Source of the DNA: Lolium rigidum
Lineage: Eukaryota > Streptophyta > Magnoliopsida > Poales > Poaceae
Direction: 5' to 3'
NCBI RefSeq assembly: GCF_022539505.1
Contig: NW_025901020.1
Coordinates: 20,567 to 84,566, forward strand
DNA: 64,000 bases
The position numbers were made by a program, and so were the translations under genes. Position 1 is the stretch's first letter; each line of letters begins with the position of its first letter. The notes beneath the pieces were generated by a model, which was not told the DNA's origin, did not search any database, and worked only from the letters and a program-made list of their open reading frames with translations. This document shows, piece by piece, positions 5,516 to 53,073 of this stretch.

Positions 5516-5918
5516 TGTCACAACCTGAAGACACTGGTGCATTTCCTGGCGTTGTCGACAACAGGTGAACATTCAGTCAAGCAACGGTTCAGATCACTTC
5601 CCCTCCATCGGACGGCTCCAATTCATTCCCATTCAAACTGTCGCCTGTGACAAGTTTTGGCAGTTTGTAAGCACACTTTATTTTGAATCGCGGCTCCTCT
5701 GGGAACTCTATATAACCAGGGAGAGTGGGTGGCTGGGTGGCGCGATCAATGAAAAACCCTAATTCTTATCTCCTACTTTATCAAGTTCTTCCTTTTGTTG
5801 CCTCTGCCTTTATATTTCCAGCAATTATCTTCCTTATTTATCTGTTGCTAGTTACTTAGTAGTGAGTTCTTGCCATAGATCTGTGTTCCTCTTTCCAAAT
5901 CATGGCCGGGTCCTGACA
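5516..5918 (+). repeat. 5' LTR of the Gypsy element
   Basis: 403 bp, TG at the start and CA at the end. It contains a TATATAA box (5709-5715) and several AT-rich poly(A)-like stretches downstream. It is followed by two bases and then the tRNA-Met primer site. Confidence 0.95.
5709..5715 (+). promoter_or_regulatory. LTR TATA box
   Basis: TATATAA in a CTC...CCAGGG context, about 195 bp into the LTR. It is repeated identically at 10816-10822 in the 3' LTR. Its position fits an LTR promoter at the U3/R border. Confidence 0.6.
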
Positions 5919-5920
5919 AT

Positions 5921-5934
5921 TGGTATCAGTCGCC
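5921..5934 (+). other. Primer binding site, initiator tRNA-Met type
   Basis: TGGTATCAG matches the first nine bases of the plant initiator tRNA-Met complement. The following bases (TCGCC) diverge from the usual AGC continuation. It lies two bases after the LTR end. Confidence 0.75.
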
Positions 5935-6047
5935 TTTTTTCCCCCGACCGCTCCCACCCACTCCACCCTCTCGCCGCCACCGTGGATCTCAATTCTCCAC
6001 CACCAGCGAGCACCACCGGGAGTATTCTGCGGAAAAGATCCAACAAG

Positions 6048-9000
6048 ATGACCCACCGCCGCACAAGATCGCAAGACAGGCTCGCCGCCGAAGCTGAGGA
6101 AGAAGAGTTGCTAGCGCAAGCTCAGGCGCAAGCAGAGGAAGAAGATGAGATCGGATCTCGACTCCCCCGCGAGGTCATCAACATCAACCGCCGCCTCGAC
6201 CACCAGCAGCACACCATGGACGCCATCCAAGGTAACCTCTCGAAGCTGACTGAGATGGTAGCGCAGCTGGCTCGTCCTACTACCGGGTCGCCGGAGTTGG
6301 CGCAACCCACCGCTGAGAAGAACCCCTTCTCTACGCCACCACCACCACCACCGAACCTCAGCCCCATCCAAGAACAGCCTACACCACCTTCCTCCACAGC
6401 CAAACTACCAGATCCACCACTACAACAACCAAATTCACAAAAGGACACTCCTTTGTACACCCAATCGCCGGAGCAGAACCAACAACAACAACCACCAAAT
6501 TCCCCACCTTTCTCCACCCTCAACCACAATACCCCAAGCTCATCCACACACCAACCTGCCAAACACCAATTCCAGAATACAAATCCATCCAACCAGCCAC
6601 ACCTATACAACCCAACACCACCTCCACCTCCGGTCCAACAGCAGTATTACCCTGCCTACACCCCATACCAAAACCCTCCACCATACTATTATCCACCACC
6701 TCCACCCAATTTCCAGCAATTCAGTCCACAACAAGGATACTATCATTACCCGTGGCAACAACAACCTTACACCCCACCACAAATTTACCCACCGCCACCA
6801 CCCACACCAAACCCCTACCAATACCCACAACCGCCACCACATGCCCCCACAAACAGACTTCCTGTCCAACCTGTTGCTGTTCATACACCAGCAACGCCCA
6901 ACCAGACACAAGTGAACCTCCAGGACCCTTATATACGAACTCCTAATGTTGAGCTGCCGCTGTTCCATGGAGAAAATGCCCAGAATTGGATTGAGGAGTG
7001 TGAGAGTATATTTTCTCTGATTGGTATACCTAACGAATCAAAAGTGAAATGGGCAAACGCACACATTAGGGGAAAAGCAAAGACTTGGCTCTCAGGCAGT
7101 AACCTGAACCTGTACCTTCTCAACTGGACACAATTTTGTCAGCTGCTTTGTGAGAGATTTCCAGTACCTGGGGAGCATGAATCAATGGAACAGTTCCAAC
7201 ACCTGCGGCAAACAAGCACTATCAATCAATACATCGATATCTTTGAGGAATACATGATATGCATGCAGAGAGACCACTCATATCTCACTGACAATTTCTT
7301 TCTGTTGAGATTTATCAGTGGCTTGAAGGAGACAGTCAAACATGCAGTGAAGAGTCACAATCCCTCTACTCTGAAATCGGCTTACTGGCATGCAAGACAA
7401 CAGGAACTGGCTTACCTAGCAACCACCAGAAGGCCTGTACCCTCTAGCACAGGTACAAGAACAGCAGCCCAGCCTCAATTCCGCCAACAGCAGAGTAACA
7501 GAGATAACAAGCCGAGAACACCTCCTGACAAGAATCGTGACAGGGGCAAATGTTGGTATTGCCCGGAACAATGGGTTTTGGGACACAAATGTGCCAGTAT
7601 GAAGAGCATTGTGCATGCAATACAATTACAAGGTCACAGTGATACTGAAGACACCAATGACAGTACTGAGACCTTTCATGATGCTGAACCCACCCTGTTA
7701 GAGAATATTGCTCCCTTGCCTATACCTAATCCTGTACCTCAGGAACCAGATTCATCACCAGAAACATTGATGCACATATCTGCTGAGGCATTACATGGAA
7801 TTCCAGGAGATACTACTCTATCAGTCATTGCACACATTGCAGGCTTCCAAGCAGTAGCATTAATTGATACTGGCAGCACCAATACTTTCATTGACACACA
7901 ATTTGTCAAAAGGGCACAATTGGAAGTTCAAGCCCCTGCAACACAAAAGGTACTAGTAGCTGGAGGAGGAGAATTACACTCAGCAGGATGTATTCCTATC
8001 TGTACCTTCAAGATCAACAAGACTACATTCTCCCACGACTGCAAGTTGCTTGATCTAAAGGGATACGATATGGTTCTTGGTGCAAATTGGCTAAAGGCAC
8101 ACAGCCCAAATTATTATGACTGGGATAAACGTCGGGTATCCATCACTGTGAAGGGAGAATGGTGTACACTCCTTGACAGCACTAAGCCACCAAGAAACCC
8201 AATCATTTCAGCTGCCAACTGCTCCAAATTGATAGCTCAAGGAGCAGAAGCCTTCCTCATAAGGCTTCCCCTTACTGACAAAGATGGGGTGACTACGTCT
8301 CAAGAGCAACAACACTTGCCCATTCCTGCAACAGTCAAGGAAATCATGGAACTTTTCTCGGATATATTCACTGAACTAGAGGGACTACCACCTAATAGAT
8401 CTTGTGATCACAAGATACCAATCAAGGAAGGGTCCAATCCACCAAATATGAGACCTTACCGCATGCCTCATAAACAGAAGAATATTGTGGAAGAATTAGT
8501 ACAGAAAATGCTCAAGAATTCTGAGATTAGATTGAGCAACAGCCCTTACTCCTCTCCTGCTATATTAGTCAGGAAAAAGGACAAAACCTGGAGGCTTTGC
8601 ATTGATTACAGACAGTTGAATGCCTTGACAATCAAAAACAAGTACCCAATTCCAGTAATTGAAGACCTACTGGATGAACTACAGGGTGCAACCATATTCT
8701 CTAAGTTGGACCTCAAATCAGGCTATCACCAAATTCGTATGAACCCTGCAGATATTGCCAAAACTGCATTCAGTACACACCCGGGTCATTATGAATACCT
8801 GGTCATGCCGTTTGGCCTGACAAATGCTCCAGCTACATTTCAGCAATTGATGAACAACATATTCTCTGCACACTTGAGGAAATTTGTCTTGGTTTTTTTT
8901 GACGACATATTGATCTATAGAAAATCTCTGGCAGAGCATAGACACCATTTGTCTCAAGTACTACAAATCCTCAGGCTACATCAGTTAAAAGCAAAATTTT

Positions 9001-10598
9001 CTAAATGCACATTTGCCACTAATTCTGTGGATTATCTGGGACATGTTCTGTCCGGATCAGGTGTAGCTACAGATCCATCCAAGATTGAGGATATCACTAA
9101 CTGGGAAACCCCTACAACCATCAAGCAACTGAGGCAATTCTTGGGCCTCACAGGGTACTACAGGAGATTCATCAAAGGGTATGCCTCCATCTGTCGACCA
9201 CTGCATGATGCACTAAAGAAAAATGCATTCCATTGGTCTGATGAGCAACATAAGGCATTCCTGATGTTAAAGGCTGTTATGTCCACTCCACCAGTGCTGG
9301 CTCTTCCCAATTTCACTCTGCCTTTCACTCTAGAGACAGATGCATCTGGCACGGGGTTGGGAGCAGTACTCATGCAACAAGGAAGGCCATTGGCATATTT
9401 CAGCAAGGCACTTGGACCAAAGGCAGCCACATTATCCATCTACGAAAAGGAGGCACTAGCTATTCTGGAATCTCTCAGGAAATGGAGACACTATCTTCTT
9501 GGTAACCAGCTCATTATCAAGACTGATCTTCTTGGTAACCAGCTCATTATCAAGACTGATCAAAGAAGCCTCAAATATTTATCTAGCCAAAGACTGCTCG
9601 AAGGGATTCAACACAAACTCATGCTCAAGCTGTTGGAGTTTGATTATGCAATAGAATACAAAAAAGGGACAGACAATACAGCTGCAGATGCCCTGTCCAG
9701 GAAATACACTGACCTAGTGGAAGAACAATGTACTGCAATATCTGCAGCTATTCCAACATGGATGAATGAAGTGGCTGACACTTATACAAATGACAACAAG
9801 TGCACACAGTTACTGCAGGAACTTGCTATCTCTGCAAACAGTAATCCCAAGTACACTCTTACTTCAGGGATACTCAGATATAAAAACAAAATTGTCCTGG
9901 GGACAGCCACTGACCTACGAGACAGAATCTTCAATGCCTTCCACTCCTCAATATTTGGTGGACATTCTGGCAATAGAGTTACTCACCACAGGATCAAGAA
10001 ACTCTTTTTCTGGCCACATCTGAAACAATTCATTGCCGACAAAGTAGCACAATGCCCGGTATGCCAGATATCAAAAACTGAACGAGTCCATTACCCTGGA
10101 TTACTTGACCCACTCAATATTCCTCACAACAAATGGGCAGAAGTGAGCATGGATTTTATTGAGGGACTACCTAGATCCAAGGGAAAGGATGTGATCCTAG
10201 TGGTTGTTGATCGACTCACCAAGTATGCTCATTTTCTCACCTTGACCCACCCATTCACTGCCCATCAAGTAGCAACATTGTTCATGGACAATGTGTCTTA
10301 CAAGCTGCAGTTACCAGAAGGAACCCTGATACACGACGTGTTCCACGTGAATCAGCTCAAGAAACACCTGGGGCCAAAAGCAGTACCAAATCCAACTCTG
10401 CCGTTACTAACTCCACATGGCAAGGTCAAATATGCACCATTGGCAGTTCTACAGTATCGGAAAATTCCACGCAGTGCTGGAGCGTACGACATTCCTGTTC
10501 CACAATGGCTGATCCATTGGGATAACATGACACCTGAGGAAGCGACTTGGGAGGACGCCAAATTTATCCAAGCAACCTTTCCATCCTTCCAGCCTTGA
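6048..10598 (+). CDS. Gypsy gag-pol polyprotein with deleted integrase core
   Basis: One uninterrupted frame of 1516 codons. It is open upstream to 5862 inside the LTR, but the ATG at 6048 is the first after the primer site. Order from this start: a Pro/Gln-rich N-terminal region; a retrotransposon gag domain (about 311-385); a Cys/His knuckle CWYC...GHKC (about 502-515); an aspartic protease with DTGS (D607); reverse transcriptase with the active-site pair FFDD (D952, D953); RNase H with TDASG (D1098); the integrase HHCC zinc domain (about 1306-1340); and the first integrase-core aspartate in SMDFIEG (D1369). Just after residue 1415 the frame jumps to a C-terminal SYKLQLPEG segment and a chromodomain-like tail. 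The second Asp and the Glu of the catalytic triad are therefore missing. Gag, protease, RT and RNase H look intact, so the product could still assemble and copy RNA, but integration would need help in trans. Confidence 0.93.
9494..9559 (+). repeat. 33-bp in-frame tandem duplication in RNase H
   Basis: Two perfect 33-bp copies (9494-9526 and 9527-9559) duplicate 11 residues, [11 protein letters not shown], within RNase H. The frame is kept. The duplicated segment carries a motif Asp (KTD), which in most relatives would occur once. Confidence 0.95.
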
Positions 10599-12372: not shown

Positions 12373-12377
12373 ACTTT

Positions 12378-12461
12378 TGTTAAGCTTCATGCACTAGCCA
12401 CTTGAACCAAAAGTTCGAACTGATGTAAAGAGCTAGACAATCTACTTTATACACGTCAACA
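12378..12461 (-). repeat. TRIM-like LTR, left arm
   Basis: 84 bp. On the minus strand it runs from TGTTGACGTG to GCATGAAGCTTAACA, and a run of G precedes it as a polypurine tract. Confidence 0.75.
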
Positions 12462-12647
12462 CCCCCTCTCACGTGTGACGGGGAGACGAGAAAATAAGTC
12501 AACACGTGTAGAGAGACAAAGAGGCAGCGGAAGGCCGGAACCACACGGCATGAGAGGCAGCAGAAGGCCGGGACCACACGGCAGGAGGCTGCGGGGAGAG
12601 GAGATAATTTTTAGAATAAACTGGGAAGATTTGAACTTGAGACCTGA

Positions 12648-12710
12648 GGGGCTCTGATACCATGTTAAGCTTCATGCACTGCATGAAGCTTAACATGGTA
12701 TCAGAGCCCC
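12648..12710. repeat. Perfect 31-bp palindrome at the dimer centre
   Basis: Arms 12648-12678 and 12680-12710 are exact reverse complements around a single C (12679). Each arm holds the last 16 bp of an LTR and the adjoining tRNA-Met primer site. Confidence 0.95.
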
Positions 12711-12868
12711 AGGTCTCGAGTTCAAATCCTGTCTTTCACATGGTTTTCGTAATTAAGCCTAAAAATTGTTGTTGCCCCCCTCTTTAGCCACCGCTGATGC
12801 TCTGTTTCGGTGTGCTCTTCTTCTTTCACGTGTTGACTTTCTCTTCTCCCGTCACACGCGAGTGGGGG

Positions 12869-12953
12869 TGTTGTGAAATGTATATGTGGATTGCCTAGCC
12901 CTTTCCATCAGTTCTGACTTTTGGTCCAAGTGGCTAGTGCATGAAGCTTAACA
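12869..12953 (+). repeat. TRIM-like LTR, right arm
   Basis: 85 bp from TGTTGTGAAATG to GCATGAAGCTTAACA, preceded by GAGTGGGGG. It is clearly homologous to the left-arm LTR. Confidence 0.75.
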
Positions 12954-12958
12954 ACTTT

Positions 12959-20372: not shown

Positions 20373-21110
20373 TTAATGATGCACTCGCAAGAGATAGTAT
20401 TTGAAGCAAAAGAGAGCATCAAGAGGCAAATTCAAAACACATTTAAGTCTAACATGCTTCCTATGCATAGGAATCTTGTAAATAAACAAGTTCATGAAGA
20501 GCAAAGTAACAAGCATAGGAAGATAGAACAAGTGTAGCTTCAAAAATTTCAGCATATAGAGAGGTGTTTTAGTAACATGAAAATTTCTACAACCATATTT
20601 TCCTCTCTCATAATAACTTTCAGTAGCATCATGAGCAAACTCAACATTATAACTATCACATAAAGCATTCTTATCATGAGTCTCATGCATAAAATTATTA
20701 CTCTCCACATAAGCATAATCAATTTTATTAGTTGTAGTGGGAGCAAATTCAACAAAGTAGCTATCATTATTATTCTCATCAAGTGTAGGAGGCATAGTAT
20801 AATCACAACAAAATTTACTCTCCATAGTAGGTGGCACCAAAAGACCACTATCATTATAATCATCATAAATAGGAGGCAAAGTATCATCAAAGAAAATTTT
20901 CTCCTCAATGCTTGGGGGACTAAAAAGATCATGAAAACCAGCTTCCCCAAGCTTAGAACTTTCTATATCATTATCAACAATTGTGTTCAAAGCGTTCATA
21001 CCAATATTACTACCAGCATGCAAATAAGATTTCATAGGTTTTTTAATTTTCGCATCAAACAATCCATGTTTTAAATCAGGAAATATAATAAGAAGCTCAT
21101 TCTTGTCCAT
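20373..21110 (-). CDS. Conserved 245-aa protein of element M, unknown function
   Basis: An intact frame on the minus strand that starts about 130 nt after the tRNA-Asp primer site, where gag begins in related element G. The protein begins MDKNELLIIFPDLKHGLFDA, is acidic in the middle (FFDDTLPPIYDDYND), and has a hydrophobic stretch near residues 195-215 (LFYLPMLVTLLFMNLFIYKI), then a basic MHRKHVRLK and a hydrophobic, aromatic tail. I see no gag, zinc-knuckle or enzyme motif. It aligns end to end with the 244-aa frame of element P, with about 32 differences and one single-residue gap. That is more conservation than two idle frames should show. It might be a membrane-associated accessory protein, loosely comparable to the third frame known in some Athila elements; that comparison is inference. 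Confidence 0.75.
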   Translation of the reverse strand: MDKNELLIIFPDLKHGLFDAKIKKPMKSYLHAGSNIGMNALNTIVDNDIESSKLGEAGFHDLFSPPSIEEKIFFDDTLPPIYDDYNDSGLLVPPTMESKFCCDYTMPPTLDENNNDSYFVEFAPTTTNKIDYAYVESNNFMHETHDKNALCDSYNVEFAHDATESYYERGKYGCRNFHVTKTPLYMLKFLKLHLFYLPMLVTLLFMNLFIYKIPMHRKHVRLKCVLNLPLDALFCFKYYLLRVHH

Positions 21111-23713: not shown

Positions 23714-24448
23714 ATGGACAACAATGAGCTTCTTATTCTATTTCCTGATTTAAAACATGGATTGTTTGATGCGAAAATTAAAAAAGCTATGGAATCTTAT
23801 TTGCATGCTGGTAGTAATATTAGTATGAACGCTTTGAACACCATTGTTGATAATAATGTAGAAAGTTCTAAGCTTGGGGAAGCTGGTTTTCATGATCTTT
23901 TTAGTCCCCCAAGCATTGAGGAGAAAATTTTCTTTGATGATACTTTGCCTCCTATTTATGATGATTATAATAGTGGTCTTTTGGTACAACCTACTATGGA
24001 GAGTAAATTTTATTGTGATTATACTATGCCTCCTACACTTGATGAGAATAATAATGATAGCTACTTTGTTGAATTTGCTCCCGCTATTACTAATAAAATT
24101 GATTATGCTTTTACGGAGAGTAATAATTTTATGCATGAGACTCATGATAAGAAAGCTTTATGTGATGGTTATATTGTTGAGTTTTCTCATGACACTACTG
24201 AAAGTTATTATGAGAGAGGAAAATATGGTGGTAGAAATTTTCATGTTACTAAAACACCTCTCTATATGCTTAAAACCTTGAAGTTAAGCTTGTCTAGTTT
24301 TTCTATGCTTGTTGCATTATGCTTCTTGAACTTGTTTATTTACAAGATTCCTATGCATAGGAAGCATGTTAGACTTAAATGTGTTTTGAATTTGCCTTTT
24401 GATGCTCTCTTTTGCTTCAACTACTATTTCTTGCAAGTGCATCATTAA
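23714..24448 (+). CDS. Conserved 244-aa protein of element P, unknown function
   Basis: An intact frame from the first good ATG after the primer site. It begins MDNNELLILFPDLKHGLFDA and matches the 245-aa frame of M along its whole length. Near residues 193-215 there is a likely membrane segment (LSLSSFSMLVALCFLNLFIY), followed by the same basic MHRKHVRLK and a Cys/aromatic tail. The centre is acidic, with FFDDTLPPIYDDYN and CDYTMPPTLDENNND. It takes the place that gag-protease holds in G, and the DNA just downstream again matches G, so it looks like a replacement of the coding cassette between shared non-coding regions. I know no family for it. The frame's survival in two copies of opposite orientation argues for function, or for a recent common source. 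Confidence 0.78.
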   Translation: MDNNELLILFPDLKHGLFDAKIKKAMESYLHAGSNISMNALNTIVDNNVESSKLGEAGFHDLFSPPSIEEKIFFDDTLPPIYDDYNSGLLVQPTMESKFYCDYTMPPTLDENNNDSYFVEFAPAITNKIDYAFTESNNFMHETHDKKALCDGYIVEFSHDTTESYYERGKYGGRNFHVTKTPLYMLKTLKLSLSSFSMLVALCFLNLFIYKIPMHRKHVRLKCVLNLPFDALFCFNYYFLQVHH

Positions 24449-35000: not shown

Positions 35001-36988
35001 AAATGCCCAAGAATTTCATTGTGTGACCAATCAAAGAATACATTCATAACATGTATATCATCTATTTACACCTGAGCTAGACTTTCTAGTCTTTTCTTTC
35101 TTTCTGCCAAAATCTTTTTGTAGTTTCTCTTTCGACTTTCCTCATATTTTAGAAAACACTTCAACATCAATAACTTCCAGGCTTGTTGGTAAAATACCAA
35201 TAACCTTGAGGTTCGCACTTTGAAGTTGATCGTCACATGACAAGTGTTCTGGATTTCACTATTAGTAACATTTAATGTGATGAACAATTTCACTCATAAT
35301 TTTATCCATCAAATCATGACAACTTCATGATGAAGCTACTATGGCTTACATGGATATGTGAATAACGTTAGTGCCCAACTAGTTGGAGGATCGGGACGCC
35401 TAGAATCTTCAACCTTCGTACATTCCCATAAAACTTATGAGTTTATGTAGTCTCACTAAATTATATTCTATTATCTTGTAATAAGATCTTAGATATCACA
35501 TATATCTCACACTTTGCTTATTTCTGAAAACAAACTTTTCAGCTCCTTACTTTTCAAATGGATTTGAACATCAAGTTTCACGGAGACAAGATAATTTTAG
35601 ATACTAGTTGAAACCATTGCTTTTCGAATTAGAAATTTGAGGATTACAATTTTTTTGAAAGAGGACTTAATCATTTCTTGATTCTTTAACGATACGGTAT
35701 CAGTCCGTAAAGTTACTTGTCAGATTTAACAGTGTTTCTATCTCAATTACAAGCCTAGCGTAAAGTAAAAAATGGATGTCAATTCTACAAAATTTAATTC
35801 AAATATAGTTTAGACTGTTTAGGATAAATTGAGTTTACTATTAATTCTTGAATTAACTAGGTGAACTTCCACTCAAAACAACATCCCTCACGTTTCCTTA
35901 GTGATTACACAAACCAAATTCAGTACACCAAGTCCGATCATCACGAGAGATGATGTAGCTTCAATGGGGAACATCGACATGTTCATCATATCATCTATAT
36001 GATTCATGCTTAACCTTTCAGTTTGTCGTGTTCCGAGCCCATGTCTGTACATGCTAGGCTCGTCAAGTTAAACCTTAGTTTCCGCATGTGTAAATCTGGC
36101 TTGCACCTGTTGTATGCACACGTTGAGTCTATCACACCAGATCATCGCGTGATGCTTCGAAACAATGAGTCTTAGAAACGGTGCTAACTAAGGATGAACA
36201 CTTTATTATCTTTATTTTTAGTGAGAGGGATCATCTTATAATGCTACCATCGCGATCTAAGCAATACAAGATGCATAAAAAGGATTAACATCACATGCAA
36301 TTCAAAATGTGATATGATATGTCCCTTTTATCTCGCGCCTTTGATCTTCATCTCCAAAGCAGGGGCATGATCTCCATCATCAACGGGCATGATCTCCATC
36401 ATCGTCGGATGGGTGTCAAGGTCCATGGCGCCGTCTTCATGGTTGTCCACCACGTGTAGCAACTATTACAACTACTTTGAAATAAAACTACTACATGAAA
36501 TATAAAGACAACCATAAGGCTCCTGCCGGTTGCCACAATACAATAATGTTCATCTCATACATCAAATATATTCACAATCACATCATTGACATATCACATC
36601 ACCAAACCCTGCAAAAAAAGTTAGACGCCTCTAATTTGGTTTGCATATTTTACGTGGTTTAGGGTTTTCGAGTAAGATCCGATCTACCTACGAACATGAA
36701 CCACAACGCTGATACAAGTGTTGTCAATTGAAAATTGTAAATTGGATCTTAACTATGGTGAGATAAACTGACACCCGCAAAGCCACTTATGCAATACAAC
36801 TTGCATGTCAAGCGTGGAGCAAGTATCATGAACGCGGTCATGTAAGGTTAGCCCAGGCCGCTTCATCCCACAATCCCGCAAGATGCAAAGTACACGATAA
36901 ACAAGAGACAAAAAAGCATCAACGCCCAAAAAACCATTGTGTTCTCCTCGTGCAACCAATCTATGCATAGACATGGCTCTGATACCAC
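32035..36988 (-). pseudogene. Degenerate Copia gag-pol of C1
   Basis: About 4.95 kb of internal domain with no frame over 100 codons. Around 33937-33659 the minus strand reads VFVGYPREQ and, further on, GRTMELDKVDEPE, which resembles the integrase/RT linker of Copia polyproteins. Around 34216-34150 a broken match to the end of the integrase core can be seen. Many stops and indels make this copy dead and old. Confidence 0.7.
36974..36987 (-). other. Primer binding site (tRNA-Met) of C1
   Basis: The minus strand reads TGGTATCAGAGCC one base after the LTR end, a standard initiator tRNA-Met primer site. Confidence 0.85.
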
Positions 36989-42595: not shown

Positions 42596-44686
42596 ATGAA
42601 TACTCCTGAGAACACTAAGTTGTGTGATTTCACTAGCACCAATAATAATGATTTTATATGCACTCCTATTGCTCCACCTGCTACTACAGCAGAATTTTAT
42701 GAAATTAAACCTTCTTTACTAAATCTTGTTATGAGAGAGCAATTTTCTGGTGTTAGTTCTGATGATGCTGCTGCCCATCTTAATAATTTTGTTGAACTTT
42801 GTGAAATGCAAAAGTATAAGGATGTAGATCGAGACATTATAAAACTGAAATTGTTTCCTTTCTCCTTAAGAGGAAGAGCTAAAGATTTGTTGCTATCTTT
42901 GCCTAAGAATAGTATTGATTCATGGACTAAATGTAAAGATGCTTTCATTGGTAGATATTATCCTCCCGCTAAAATTATATCTTTGAGAAGTAGCATAATG
43001 AATTTTAAGCAATTGGATAATGAACATGTTGCTCAAGCATGGGAAAGAATGAAATCTTTGGTAAAGAATTTCCCTACCCATGGACTAACTACTTGGATGA
43101 TCATCCAAACCTTTTATGCAGGATTGAATTTTTCTTCGCGGAACCTATTGGATGCAGCTGCTGGAGGTACTTTTATGTCCATCACCTTAGGCGCCGCAAC
43201 AAAGCTCCTTGATAATATGATGATCAATTACTCTGAATGGCACACGGAAAGGACTCCACAAGGTAAGAAGGTAAATTCCGTTGAAGAAACCTCCTCCTTC
43301 AGTGATAAGATTGATGCTATTATGTCTATGCTTGTGAATGGTAGATCTAATGTTGATCCTAATAATGTTCCTTCAGCTTCATTGGTTTCTCAAGAAGAGC
43401 ATGTTGATGTGAACTTCATTAAAAGTAATAATTTTAACAACAATGCTTATAGGAATAATTCTGGTAACAACTATAGGCCATATCCTTCTAATAATGGTAA
43501 TGGTTATGGTAATTCTTATGGTAATTCTTACAACAATAATAGGAGTGTACCCCCTGGTCTTGAAGCCATGCTTAAAGAATTTATTAGTACACAAACTGCT
43601 TTTAACAAATCCGTTGAGGAAAAGCTTGGTAAAATTGATATTCTTGCTTCTAAGGTTGATAGTCTTGCCGCTGATGTTGATCTTTTAAAATTGAAAGTTA
43701 TGCCTAATGAAGATAAAGATATTAAGTCATTTGCTACAACAAACGCTATCCAAGTTCGAATTAATGAAAATATTAGATTGATGGCTGAATTGCATGCTAG
43801 GTGGGAAAAAGAAGAAAAACTCGCTAAAGAGAATAATGTAGCTAAAGTTTGGACTATTACCACCACTAGTAATGTTGATGCTTCACATGTTGCTAAACCT
43901 CCTACTATCAATGGTAAAATAATTGGTGTTGGCAATGTTTCTACTCCTAATGCAAAGCGTGCAAAACTACCTGAAACTGCTTGTGATAAAACTGCTGAAA
44001 TTTTTCAAAATATTGGGGACAATGATCCCATTGCTTTAGATCATAATGGTTTAGATTTTGATGATTGTCATATCTCTGAAGTTATTAAGTTCTTACAAAA
44101 ACTTGCTAGAAGTCCTAATGCTAGTGCTATAAATTTGGCCTTTACAAAACATATTACAAATGCTCTCATAAAAGCTAGAGAAGATAAATTAAAACTTGAA
44201 ACTTCTATTCCTAGGAAGTTGGAAGATGGTTGGGAGCCCATCATTAAGATGAAGGTCAATGATTTTGATTGTAATGCTTTATGTGATCTTGGTGCAAGTA
44301 TTTCTGTTATGCCTAAGAAACTCTATGATATGCTTGACTTGCCACCATTGAAAAAATGTTATTTGGAAGTTAATCTCGCTGATAATTCTATAAAGAAACC
44401 TTTGGGGAGGATTGATAATGTTCGCATTACGGTTAACAATAACCTTGTCCCCTTTGATTTTGTTGTCTTGGATATTAATTGCAATGCATCTTGTCCCATT
44501 ATTTTGGGAAGACCTTTTCTTCGAACTGTTGGTGCTATTATTGATATGAAGGAAGGGAATATTAAGTATCAATTTTCTCTCAAGAAAGGTATGGAACACT
44601 TCCCTGGAAAGAGAATGAAGTTACCTTTTGATTCTATTATTAGAACAAATTATGATGTTGATGCTTCATCTCTCGATAATACTTGA
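42596..44686 (+). CDS. Athila-type gag-protease, intact
   Basis: A 696-aa frame from the first ATG after the primer site and an AT-rich leader. A retrotransposon gag domain lies at about residues 60-165 (SLRGRAKDLLLSLP, then WTKCKDAFIGRYYPP). Next come an Asn-rich stretch near 285-320 and a coiled, charged region near 330-420. An aspartic protease lies near 555-670, with CDLGASISVMP (catalytic Asp about 564) and the LGRPFLRT flap-side motif typical of plant Athila proteases. The frame ends without reverse transcriptase. The product should form virus-like particles and process itself, and could supply gag to the gag-less relatives M and P. Sequence drift is low enough to keep the frame fully open. 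Confidence 0.93.
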   Translation: MNTPENTKLCDFTSTNNNDFICTPIAPPATTAEFYEIKPSLLNLVMREQFSGVSSDDAAAHLNNFVELCEMQKYKDVDRDIIKLKLFPFSLRGRAKDLLLSLPKNSIDSWTKCKDAFIGRYYPPAKIISLRSSIMNFKQLDNEHVAQAWERMKSLVKNFPTHGLTTWMIIQTFYAGLNFSSRNLLDAAAGGTFMSITLGAATKLLDNMMINYSEWHTERTPQGKKVNSVEETSSFSDKIDAIMSMLVNGRSNVDPNNVPSASLVSQEEHVDVNFIKSNNFNNNAYRNNSGNNYRPYPSNNGNGYGNSYGNSYNNNRSVPPGLEAMLKEFISTQTAFNKSVEEKLGKIDILASKVDSLAADVDLLKLKVMPNEDKDIKSFATTNAIQVRINENIRLMAELHARWEKEEKLAKENNVAKVWTITTTSNVDASHVAKPPTINGKIIGVGNVSTPNAKRAKLPETACDKTAEIFQNIGDNDPIALDHNGLDFDDCHISEVIKFLQKLARSPNASAINLAFTKHITNALIKAREDKLKLETSIPRKLEDGWEPIIKMKVNDFDCNALCDLGASISVMPKKLYDMLDLPPLKKCYLEVNLADNSIKKPLGRIDNVRITVNNNLVPFDFVVLDINCNASCPIILGRPFLRTVGAIIDMKEGNIKYQFSLKKGMEHFPGKRMKLPFDSIIRTNYDVDASSLDNT

Positions 44687-46625: not shown

Positions 46626-47039
46626 ATATAATGCAATGATAATCCATGTAAATCCAAGCTAATTAGGACAAGGTGCGAGCACTATTGGTATTATATGCAT
46701 CACTACAAGAAAAGTTGCCATGGCCGACGAAGTTGAAGTCGCGCCGTGGTTGCTGGTGTACCATGGCCGACGATTTTTGGTCCCTCCGTGGTGCATGTCA
46801 AAACCTATTTTTTCTCGTTTTTTAGGCCACCTAGCCCGACGAAAGCGGCCAAAACGTCGCGTATGGTGTCCCGGGACGTGGTGCATCTCGAAATCTCGGG
46901 TTCGCCGGCCGAGTCAACGCAAATCCGCACCGCCGAGGGATGTAGGGCCCAGATGGCAGCCTCTCTGGCATTGTTTTTTTTCTCGATCGCGCCATCTCGT
47001 TCAACGTTCTCCGATCGAGCCGTTTACGATGCGGGATCA

Positions 47040-50000
47040 TGGGTCCCGCATGTCATCCTCTATGAACCAAAATTCTTTCTATTCTTGGATTTTTTTGACC
47101 CCCGATTTCCGGCTACTTCCTTTTTCTTTTGATCCCTTGCCGCCTTGGAAACGTTGAGACCGCTGTCTGCTAAATGGGACCCGCATGTCATCCTCTATGT
47201 GCAATCAACTTTCTTTTCTTGGAGTTTTTTTGGCACCTCAAATTTGGTCACTTGCCTTTTTCTTTCGATCCCCTGCCGCCTCTCAAACGGTGATACCGCT
47301 AGCTGCTAACTGGGACCCGCATGTCATCCTCTATGCACTATAAAACTTTCTTTTCTTGAATTATTTTTGGCACCTCATATTTGGTCACTTACCTTTTTCT
47401 TTCGATCCCCTGCCGCCTCTTAAACGGTGATACCGCTGCTGCTAAATGGGACCCGCATGTCATCCTCTATGTACTATAAAACTTTCTTTTCTTGGAGTTT
47501 TTTTTGGCACCTCAAATTTGGTCACTTGCCTTTTTCTTTCGATCCCCTGCCGCCTCTCAAACGGTGATACCGATGCTGCTAACTGGGACCCGCCTGTCAT
47601 CCTCTATGTACTATAAAACTTTCTTTTCTTGAATTATTTTTGGCACCTCATATTTGGTCACTTACCTTTTTCTTTCGATCCTCGCCGCCTCTCAAACGGT
47701 GATACCGCTGCTGCTAAATGGGACCCGCATGTCATCCTCTATGTACTATAAAACTTTCTTTTCTTGGAGTTTTTTTGACACCTCAAATTTGGTCACTTGC
47801 CTTTTTCTTTCGATCCCCTGCCGCCTCTCAAAGGGTTATACCGCTGCTGCTAAATGGGACCCGCATGTCATCCTCTATGTACTATAAAACTTTCTTTTCT
47901 TGAATTATTTTTGGCACCTCATATTTGGTCACTTACCTTTTTCTTTCGATCTCATGCCACGTTTGAAACGTTGAGGAACCTGCAGGCTCATGGGACCCGC
48001 ATGTCATCCTCTATGTACTATAAAAGTTCATTTTCTTGGTTTTTTTTCACCCTCTGATTTTTGGCAATTTCTTTTTTCTTTTGATCCCCTGCCGCCTCTC
48101 AAACGGTGATACCGCTGTCTGCTAAATGGGACCCGCATGTCATCCTCTATGTACTATAAAACTTTCTTTTCTTGAATTATTTTTGGCTCCTCATATTTGG
48201 TCACTTGCCTTTTTCTTTCGATCTCATGCCACGTTTGAAACGTTGAGGAACCTGCTGGCTCATGGGACCCGCATGTCATCCTCTATGTGCTATAAAAGTT
48301 TATTTTCTTTATTTTTTTTTCACCCTCTGATTTTTGGCTATTTCCTTTTTCTTTTGATCCCTTGCCGCCTTGGAACCGTTGGGTAAGCTGTCGCCTCATG
48401 GGACCCGCATGTCATCCTCTATGTACAATCAACTTTCTTTTTCTTTTGATCTCAAGCCGCATTTGAAACGTTGAGACCGGCTGTCGCTAAATGGGACCCG
48501 CATGTCATCCTCTACGTACGAAAAAGTTTCTTTTCTTGGATTATCTTTGGCTCCTGATATTATGTCACTTGCCTTTTTCTTTCGATCTCATGCCGCCTTT
48601 GAAACGTTGAGTAAGCTGCTGGCTCATAGGTCCCGCATGTCATCCTCTACGAACAATAAAAGTTTCCTTTCTTGGAGTTATTTTTTACCCCTAATTTCTG
48701 GCTATTTGCCTTTTTCTTTTGATCTCCTCCCCCCTCCGAAACGATGAGGACGCTGTTGGCAGGTCGGTCCCACATGTCATCCTCTATGAACAATAAAAGT
48801 TTCCTTTGATGGATTTATTTTGAACCCCTAATTAATTTCTCGATATTTCCCCTGCCGCCTTGGAATCGTTGAGGATGCTGCTGCCTCATGGGTCCCGCAT
48901 GTCATCCTCTCAGAACGGTAAATGTTTATTTTCTTGGATTTTGTTGACCAAACGATTTTTGGCTTATTTTTTCTTTCGATCACCTGCAGCCTTTAAAACG
49001 TTGAGGATGCTGCTGGCTCACGGGTCCCACATGTCAACCTCTATGAACAATAAACGCTGAGGATGCCTGCCGCCTCATGGGTCCCGCATGTCATCCTCTC
49101 GGAACGAAAATGTTTCTTTTCTTGGATTTTTTACCAACGTATTTTTGGTTTATTTTTTCTTTCCATCCCACTCGCCTTTAAAACGTTGACGACGCTGTTG
49201 GCTCATGGGTCCCCGATGTCATCCTCCCCGTACAAGAAACATATGATATCTTGATTATTTTGCAGACAATAAACAATGTATTGCGCTCTGAGCTATTTCA
49301 AACGGATAATTAAATCTTTATTTTTACATAAACAAACTTATATGTTGAATCTCCTTGTTTTTTTGTCTTTGCGAAGCATAGGACTTTCCTGTTTTTTTAG
49401 AAAATTCGGAACTTTCCTGTTTTGGAGTGGGCTGAAATTGTACGAGTCAAAAGGCCAAGCGAGGATAGTTCGAAGGCCCGGATGTCCGGATGCAGCCCAA
49501 TTGAAATCTTTCTTCTTGGATTTTTTTCACCCCACGATTTACGGCTACTTCATTTTTCTTTTGGTTCTGTGCCGCCTCTCAAACGGTGAGACCGCTGCTG
49601 CAAAATGGGACCCGCATGTCATCCTCTATGTATAGTAAAATTTCTTTTCTTAGATTATATTTGGCTCCTGATATTTGGTCACTTGCCTTTTTCTTTCGAT
49701 CTCATGCCACGTTTGAAACGTTGAAAAACCTGTTGGCTCATGGGACCCGCATGTCATCCTCTATGTACAATAAAACTTTCTTTTCTTCGATTTTTTTGGC
49801 ACCTCATATTTGGTCACTTGCCTTTTTCTTTCGATCCCCTGCCGCCTCTCAAACGGTGATACCGCTGTCTGCTAAATGGGACCCGCATGTCATACTCTAT
49901 GTACAATCAAGTTTCTTTTCTTGAATTATTTTTGGATCCCGATATTTGGTCACTTGCCTTTTTCTTTCGATCTCATGCCACGTTTGAAACGTTGAAAAAC

Positions 50001-51480
50001 CTGCTGGCTCATGGGACCCACATGTCATCCTCTATGTACTATAAAAGTTCATTTTCTTGGTTTTTTTTCACCCTATGATTTTCGGCTATTTCCTTTTTCT
50101 TTTGATCCCCTGCCGCCTTTGAAACGTTGAGGACTCTGTCGGCTCATCGATAAAACTTTCCTTTCTTGGAGTTTTTTTACCCCCTAATTTACGGCTACTT
50201 TCTTTTTCTTTTGATCTCAAGCCGCATTTGAAACGTTGAGACCGCTGCTGCTAAATGGGACCCGCATGTCATCCTCTATGTTCAATAAAGTTTTCTTTTC
50301 TTGGATTATCTTTGTCTCCCGATATTTTGTCACTTGCCTTTTTCTTTCGATCTCATGCCGCCTTTGAAACGTTGAGTAAGCTGCTGGCTCATGGGTCCCG
50401 CATGTCATCCTCTACGAACAATAAAAGTTTCCTTTCTTGGAGTTATTTTTGAACCCTAATTTCCGGCTACTTCCTTTTTCTTTTGATCCCGTGCCGCCTT
50501 GGAAACGTTGAGACCGCTGCCGCTAAATGGGTCCCGCATGTCATCCTCTATGTACAATAAAATTTCTTTCTTCGATTATTTTCGGGTCCTGATATTTGGT
50601 CACTTGCCTTTTTCTTTCGATCTCATGCCGCCTTTGAAACGTTGAGGAAGCTGGCCGGAGCATGGGTCCCGCATGTCATCCTCTATGAACAATAAAAGTT
50701 TCCTTTCTTGGAGTTATTTTTTACCCCTAATTTCTGGCTACTTCCTTTTTCTTTTGATCCCCTGCCGCCTTTGAAACGTTGAAGACTTTGCTGGCTCATG
50801 GGTCCCACATGTCAGCATCTATGAACAATAAACCTTTCCTTTGTTGGATTTATTGTTTACCCCTAATTTCTGGCTATTTGCCTTTTTCTTTTGATCCCCA
50901 CCGGCCTTTGAAAACGTTGAGGAACCTGCTGGGCTCATGGGACCCGCATGTCATCCTCTATGTACTATAAAATTTCTTTTCTTGGTTTTTTTTTCACCTC
51001 TGATTTTTGGCTATTTCCTTTTTCTTTTGATCCCTGCCGCCTTGGAAACGTTGAGTAAGCTGTTGACTCATGGGACCCGCATGTCATCCTCTATGTACAA
51101 TCAACTTTCTTTTTTTGGAGTTTTTTTACCCCCTAATTTCTGGCTACTTTCTTTTTCTTTTGATCTCAAACCGCATTTGAAACGGTTGAAACCGCCTGCT
51201 GCAAAATGGGACCCGCATGTCATCCTCTATGTACAATAAGTTTCATTTCTTGGATTATTTTTGGCTCCTGATATTTGGTCACTTGCCTTTTTCTTCCGAT
51301 CTCATGCCGCCTTTGAAACGTTGAGTAAGCTGCTGGCTCATGGGTCCCGCATGTCATCCTCTACGAACAATAAAAGTTTCATTTCTTGGAGTTATTTTTG
51401 ACCCCTAATTTATGGCTACTTCCTTTTTTCTTTTGATCCACTGCCGCCTTTGAAACGGTGAGGATTCTGCGGACTAATAC
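47040..51480 (+). repeat. 136-bp tandem repeat array, about 33 copies
   Basis: The core GGGACCCGCATGTCATCC recurs about 33 times with a period near 136 bp (for example 47052, 47187, 47323, 47459, 47596, 47731, 47867, 48003, 48139, 48275, 48411). Between cores are a CTTTCTTTTCTTGG segment, a TTTGGTCACTTGCC segment and a CCGCC...AAACG segment. At least two unit types exist: one with CTCAAACGGTGATACCG, the other with TTTGAAACGTTGAGGAA. They alternate around 47867-48411 as a higher-order repeat of about 272 bp. Some units are shortened, for example 93 bp between 48411 and 48504. Confidence 0.92.
49255..49500 (+). repeat. Array break, homologous to 51560-51800
   Basis: A non-repeat segment within the array (TTGAATCTCCTTG...GGGCTGAAATTG) resembles the sequence just after the array's end (GTAGAATCTCCGCG...GGGCCGAAATTG near 51690-51760). 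This suggests that an array plus its right border was duplicated. Confidence 0.55.
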
Positions 51481-52639: not shown

Positions 52640-53014
52640 TTATCGCACTACTTTGTAAAAATATGAACTACGGAGTATCTATCAAGCTAATTTTATCCTA
52701 TTTTATGTCTATTTCTAGTCTTTGTTTGATCTTCTGTTTTACTGCACTCTATTTTTCATTATATTCTGTTTTTGGCGCTGCATTTATAGCGCCTCTGAAA
52801 ATACGCTGTTTCAGCCCTGCATTTGGCCGCCACAGTTTGCAGCTTCCGGTGAAGCTATTGCCGGCTCCATGCGCAGCATCAGCCATTCAGCCCACAGCGC
52901 CAAAATATAGAGCCACTGCTGGAGTTGCTGTAATATGTTTGTCGACAGGAGCTTACCTAATTAGTTAAAAAAAGATGTTCAGCGTGGGATTCGAAAAAAA
53001 GATCTTCATGTTTT
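52640..53014. other. Downstream of the AP2 remnant, no gene seen
   Basis: AT-rich, then a mixed stretch (52770-52965) with GGCGCTGCATTTATAGCGCC-like symmetry. No coding feature stands out. Confidence 0.4.
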
Positions 53015-53073
53015 TTTCCTAGCTATCCTAGTTCGGACTTTTTATTGTGTTGGCTAGTGCATGAAGCTTGACA
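53015..53073 (+). repeat. Remnant of a TRIM-like LTR
   Basis: AGTTCGGACTTTTT and, further on, GGCTAGTGCATGAAGCTTG match the 3' half of the small LTR found at 12869-12953, ending in the same ...ACA. No primer site follows, so it is a solo or truncated copy. Confidence 0.6.

Follow-up and report, generated by a model that had tools for sequence, protein, structure and literature searches.

How can a retrotransposon-derived insertion end in the same LTR terminus on both sides and be framed by one target duplication? The question is raised by a 576-bp structure at positions 12378-12953 of the window (the whole 64-kb stretch of Lolium rigidum DNA that was analysed), in which two LTR units, related to each other and devoid of coding capacity, are arranged head to head between two copies of the pentamer ACTTT. 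As far as its sequence organization allows a judgement, the two units had probably been combined into an inverted dimer beforehand and entered the chromosome in one integration event (probability about 0.78). This probability is divided among three routes by which the dimer could have been made, with the largest share on the joining of minus strands, a smaller one on the joining of full-length cDNAs, and the smallest on randomly broken cDNAs.

Anatomy and family of the two units

From the centre outwards, each unit consists of a U5 stub, a TGGTATCAGAGC primer site, which we take to be of the initiator tRNA-Met type, an interior, a G-rich tract, and a complete LTR. The two 3′ LTRs face outward and form both outer ends of the structure, the left one with 84 bp (12378-12461, minus strand) and the right one with 85 bp (12869-12953, plus strand), both reading TGTT...AACA. 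Both outer termini are complete U5 LTR ends, as the preliminary description had recognized. A TATA box is found at position 11 of the left LTR (TATAAA), and only a weaker TGTATATG in the right LTR. Counted with primer site and purine tract, the internal regions measure 201 bp in the left unit (12462-12662, minus strand) and 173 bp in the right unit (12696-12868, plus strand). The purine tracts were read from the sequence: GTGAGAGGGGG adjoins the left LTR at 12462-12472 (minus strand), and GCGAGTGGGGG ends the right interior at 12858-12868 (plus strand). The primer sites, located by motif match, lie at 12651-12662 (minus strand) and 12696-12707 (plus strand), and beside them the 5′ LTRs of both units are gone but for their last 16-18 nt. 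A further TGGTATCAGAGC motif is present far from the structure at 36976-36987 (minus strand), directly after an LTR-like end (...CTACA G TGGTATCAGAGC), and by eye it probably belongs to a separate Copia element.

In size (less than 1 kb), lack of coding capacity, and a duplication within the 4-6 bp range, the structure corresponds in part to the description of TRIMs; each unit, however, has a single full LTR and a stub of 16-18 nt, and the termini of the dimer are inverted where those of a TRIM are direct repeats. Of two protein searches with frames crossing the dimer centre, one returned 12 candidates, none with E <= 1, and the other no candidate. The units are probably tiny non-autonomous LTR elements that depend on Copia elements. 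Among the described families, they come close to SMART (FRetro129), for which the accessible text of the family description gives 85-bp LTRs with TGTT...AACA ends, a TATA box in the form of the LTR motif TATAAAA, lack of coding capacity, a 5-bp duplication, an occurrence in grasses, and a reference length of 292 bp with genome averages of 261-284 bp (standard deviations 14-36; Gao et al. 2012, PMC3281118). Set against this account, the structure shares the grass host, the LTR length and ends, the TATA box, a primer site at one end of the interior and a purine tract at the other (both units carry TGGTATCAGAGC and G-rich tracts), the 5-bp target duplication (here around the whole dimer), and the absence of coding capacity, the longest stop-to-stop frame inside the element having 78 aa. 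It differs from it in that the published elements carry two direct LTRs whereas an inverted dimer is found here, and in that restoring the 5′ LTRs would give units of 343 and 369 bp, against the published 261-292 bp. Because this length lies outside the published range and the assignment is by features as described, not by alignment to a SMART sequence, we call the units SMART-type and do not treat them as proven SMART elements.

On sequence likeness, the two arms are two members of one family. The LTRs are identical in 72 of 82 ungapped columns (87.8%), with three gap columns, in an alignment for which both slices were started one base inside the LTR. The interiors, which the preliminary description had held to differ strongly, turned out to be homologous: in an alignment of 223 columns, 138 are identical, 15 mismatched, and 70 gapped, which amounts to 90% identity where aligned. 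The difference lies in large indels, and part of the difference in length is due to a 33-bp tandem duplication (2.1 copies, 12520-12587) that is present in the left unit only. An exact 33-bp tandem duplication is also present at 9493-9561, inside a 1578-aa open frame (5862-10598, plus strand) that looks by eye like a Gypsy-type polyprotein.

A hairpin made by simple copying of one arm was rejected as an origin, since the arms are separated by many indels and by about 10-12% substitutions in both LTR and interior; on this point the preliminary description was right. The outermost 27 bp are identical between the arms. A decayed piece of an LTR from this mini-retrotransposon family, at 53007-53073 (plus strand), has kept its U5 end (GGCTAGTGCATGAAGCTTGACA) and retains GGCTAGTGCATGAAGCTT, the U5 end being nearly unchanged in this old relic, which points to conservation of the U5 end within the family. 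As the U5 end is kept in this third LTR, the identity of the outer 27 bp needs no gene conversion.

One target duplication around the pair

The ACTTT copies adjoin the outer LTR ends exactly, at 12373-12377 on the left and 12954-12958 on the right. By chance, exact 5-bp duplications adjoin 94 of the 63,414 intervals of 576 bp in the window (0.0015), and 133 of 87,616 pairs of 5-mers drawn from the local flanks agree (0.0015); the chance of an exact 5-mer match at both outer ends is about 0.0013-0.0015. The boundaries of the structure were fixed by the LTR ends and not picked to yield matching 5-mers; therefore, the duplication can with good reason be read as the mark of one event that joined both outer ends to the chromosome. 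Together with the intact outer LTR ends, it gives good support to the single integration event that had been proposed for this locus.

The preliminary description had also pointed out that ACTTT as part of a pre-existing local repeat would speak for two successive events. Within 500 bp on either side, ACTTT is not part of any evident local repeat: on the plus strand it occurs once per flank, i.e., just as the two copies of the duplication, and its other-strand form AAAGT is absent from the left flank and occurs once in the right. Matches of the 500-bp left flank elsewhere in the window do not exceed 19 bp, and the right flank has none. If the flanks are joined to each other, a credible empty site carrying a single ACTTT results.

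The least probable of the readings that we weighed is that the two units inserted independently, side by side or one within the other, and that the middle was deleted afterwards. In grass genomes, elements are often nested or recombined (PMC1950507), which lends such a history some plausibility, but the exact duplication at both outer ends would then be a coincidence at about 0.0015, and in the nested form the deletion would also have to end exactly at the outer duplication.

It is likewise highly improbable that the structure belongs to a fold-back family that multiplies in dimer form, as had been suggested for it. Its terminal inverted repeats of 69 bp (90% complementary) and the 5-bp duplication would suit such a family. 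Against it, no second dimer was seen in the 64-kb window, and the units look like ordinary LTR units: MITEs or fold-back DNA transposons are recognized by terminal inverted repeats that occur in many copies and lack retroelement signals, whereas both units here carry an LTR, a primer site, and a purine tract. Moreover, both LTRs, which would be the promoters if active, point outward, which leaves the interior off any LTR-driven transcript, so the genomic dimer is not expected to transcribe its own interior. Patterns of the dimer centre and of U5 or U5 with primer site gave no matches in four viral-contig and two genome-contig scans, in collections that are viral and prokaryotic and therefore say little about grasses.

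The window around the insertion contains other repeats and reading frames. No Rfam match was obtained in it at gathering scores. Of five frames searched against Pfam, one has gag and protease domains of retrotransposons and another a zf-RVT match below the curated cut-off; the two frames beside the insertion gave no match. For the retrotransposon frame at 42596-44686, all those among the matches listed (120 of 484) that bear a species name are from Lolium multiflorum, with 80-94% identity over 42-78% of the query, and others span the whole query with an identity of up to 90%; this agrees with a grass host close to Lolium. Several blocks of long tandem repeats, with a unit of about 136 bp that contains ATGGGACCCGCATGTCATCCTCTACGTAC, lie within 47039-51464; their copies match each other at 74-83%. 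A related pair of frames (245 and 244 aa, 87% identical) is found in opposite orientation at 20373-21110 (minus strand, no Pfam match) and 23714-24448 (plus strand).

Published inverted pairs and fused elements

Fusion of LTR elements prior to integration has a precedent in the template-switching complexes of grasses, where fused elements flanked by only one 5-bp duplication are argued to have been fused before they integrated (Sabot and Schulman 2007, PMC1950507). The Lolium structure resembles these complexes in that two copies would have been fused before one integration with one 5-bp duplication; the published complexes, however, are direct, with three LTRs and with U3 and U5 as outer ends, whereas the structure described here is inverted and has two U5 ends. 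Tandem multimers are also on record for Cassandra TRIMs, for which template switching has been discussed (Kalendar et al. 2020, PMC7215508). These differ in being direct arrays with 5S-like LTRs, and in the text of that paper available here “inverted” refers to primers or PCR and an inverted dimer is not described.

A closer counterpart is a maize Zma-SMART insertion that the legend of Fig. 2C of Gao et al. (2016, PMC4717578) describes as “two inverted TRIMs” (AC220956:117725-118283, TSD CTTCA), and that belongs to arrays stated in the paper to be validated by PCR and sequencing. According to the legend, the maize pair shares with 12378-12953 the two inverted mini-LTR units and the one 5-bp duplication, and it is of similar length (559 bp in maize, 576 bp here). 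The Lolium structure likewise has the make-up of an inverted TA-TRIM, i.e., two inverted TRIM units inside one target duplication. In a literature search at the level of titles and abstracts, no inverted TRIM or inverted LTR dimer was recognized besides the one in PMC4717578. The earlier statement that a single integration with two U5 ends is not a normal retrotransposon product is weakened by this published inverted pair with one duplication, as far as its legend describes it.

The two pairs may not be built alike in every respect. With the maize anatomy taken from the figure legend and coordinates, its 559 bp agree by length arithmetic with a pair of full-length maize units (540-596 bp) and exceed what a pair with both 5′ LTRs cut to about 17 nt would measure (404-460 bp), whereas the units of the Lolium pair are longer and have their central LTRs cut to 16-18 nt. 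By this arithmetic alone, the near-symmetrical central truncation may set the Lolium structure apart from the maize case. The kind of object is thus already known since 2016, and the symmetrical truncation at the join is a possibly new feature of the Lolium structure.

The central join and its possible origin

The centre of the structure is a 63-bp palindrome (12648-12710) with perfect 31-bp arms around a one-base spacer (12679), and it holds the two facing TGGTATCAGAGC primer sites, which confirms this part of the preliminary description. It is by far the longest perfect palindrome of the 64 kb: with spacers of up to 4 bp allowed, no other has arms of more than 11 bp. Treated as single-strand DNA, the segment 12600-12760 folds at −56.2 kcal/mol, compared to a mean of −14.5 for 200 shuffles (z −15.8). 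Of the claim that both units keep the last 16 bp of their 5′ LTR, only the half concerning the right unit holds: the right remnant is indeed the last 16 nt of U5 (12680-12695, plus strand), but the left one comprises the last 18 nt (12663-12680, minus strand). The two U5 remnants overlap at the join by a single base, 12680, which is common to both.

The near-equal length of the stubs hints at a shared cause; this may be a fixed stop of reverse transcription, or the loss of the middle of a longer palindrome once it had integrated. Two breaks in an 85-bp LTR would fall no more than 2 nt apart, as they do here, with a chance of 5.7% if they were independent and uniformly distributed. This figure bears on the route in which two cDNAs were broken at unrelated points of the 5′ LTR, joined by ordinary end joining, and then integrated, with the core of a single integration kept. 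The minimal microhomology at the join would suit this route, and the 5.7% counts only mildly against unrelated breaks; altogether, we consider it unlikely.

The joining of minus strands is the route that we tentatively place first, at somewhat less than even odds. The RNAs of two family members would have been reverse transcribed in one particle, each minus strand starting at its tRNA primer, from which the outer U5 end would derive. Each minus strand would then have run through its unit and the primer site and halted 16-18 nt into U5, after which the two minus-strand 3′ ends would have been joined by a template jump or by end joining. Second-strand synthesis would have yielded a linear DNA with U5 at both ends, and an integrase supplied in trans would have accepted the two U5 ends. 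As for the matching stops, our guess is that, once the first strand transfer had taken place, RNase H may have degraded what was left of the R-U5 template; its active site lies roughly 18 nt from that of the polymerase.

Of two variants concerning the centre, the first was discarded. Annealing of two minus strands via the U5 palindromes TGCA or AAGCTT would make a different centre, without the extra C, and the join overlaps by one base. That the stubs represent the 5′ end of the RNA is not favoured either. Transcription typically starts 25-40 nt downstream of a TATA box; with TATAAA at LTR position 11, this spacing leaves 34-49 nt of R plus U5, compared to remnants of 16-18 nt.

Central truncation could also have followed integration. 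Here, two full-length linear cDNAs would have been joined 5′ LTR to 5′ LTR, a joining of cDNA ends of the sort that generates retroviral 2-LTR circles, and integrated by the U5 end of each; from the roughly 170-bp palindrome formed in this way at the centre, hairpin slippage or repair would later have deleted the middle and spared 18 and 16 nt, again with the core of a single integration kept. We regard this as possible but doubtful. A later deletion in the centre would be near-symmetrical by geometry, one base of microhomology is present at the join, and the length of the maize insertion, which fits full units, suggests that full inverted dimers probably exist. On the other side, a second event is required, no full-length inverted dimer is seen in the 64-kb window, and the maize anatomy comes from a legend and coordinates. 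The earlier proposal of aberrant reverse transcription of two co-packaged mini-element RNAs thus stands in part: an origin from two related RNAs or cDNAs is the best inference, but no single way of making the dimer is singled out, the joining of minus strands included.

Taken alone, the structure is a genomic curiosity of limited consequence, a strong hairpin with two outward LTRs at one site. It is also a cleanly readable inverted mini-LTR dimer that apparently integrated as a whole; its two source copies can be told apart, and its join is sharply defined. We consider it improbable, though worth stating, that mini-LTR elements regularly give rise to inverted dimers ending in U5 on both sides, by way of a fixed stop 16-18 nt beyond the primer site, at the point where RNase H has cut the template, of paired joining, and of an integrase that takes two U5 ends; if this were true, the length of the central stub would record in the genome where RNase H cuts during reverse transcription of plant Copia elements. 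If further dimers were to share the join, they would provide direct evidence on how plant Copia-type reverse transcription stops and on the tolerance of the integrase for two like ends.
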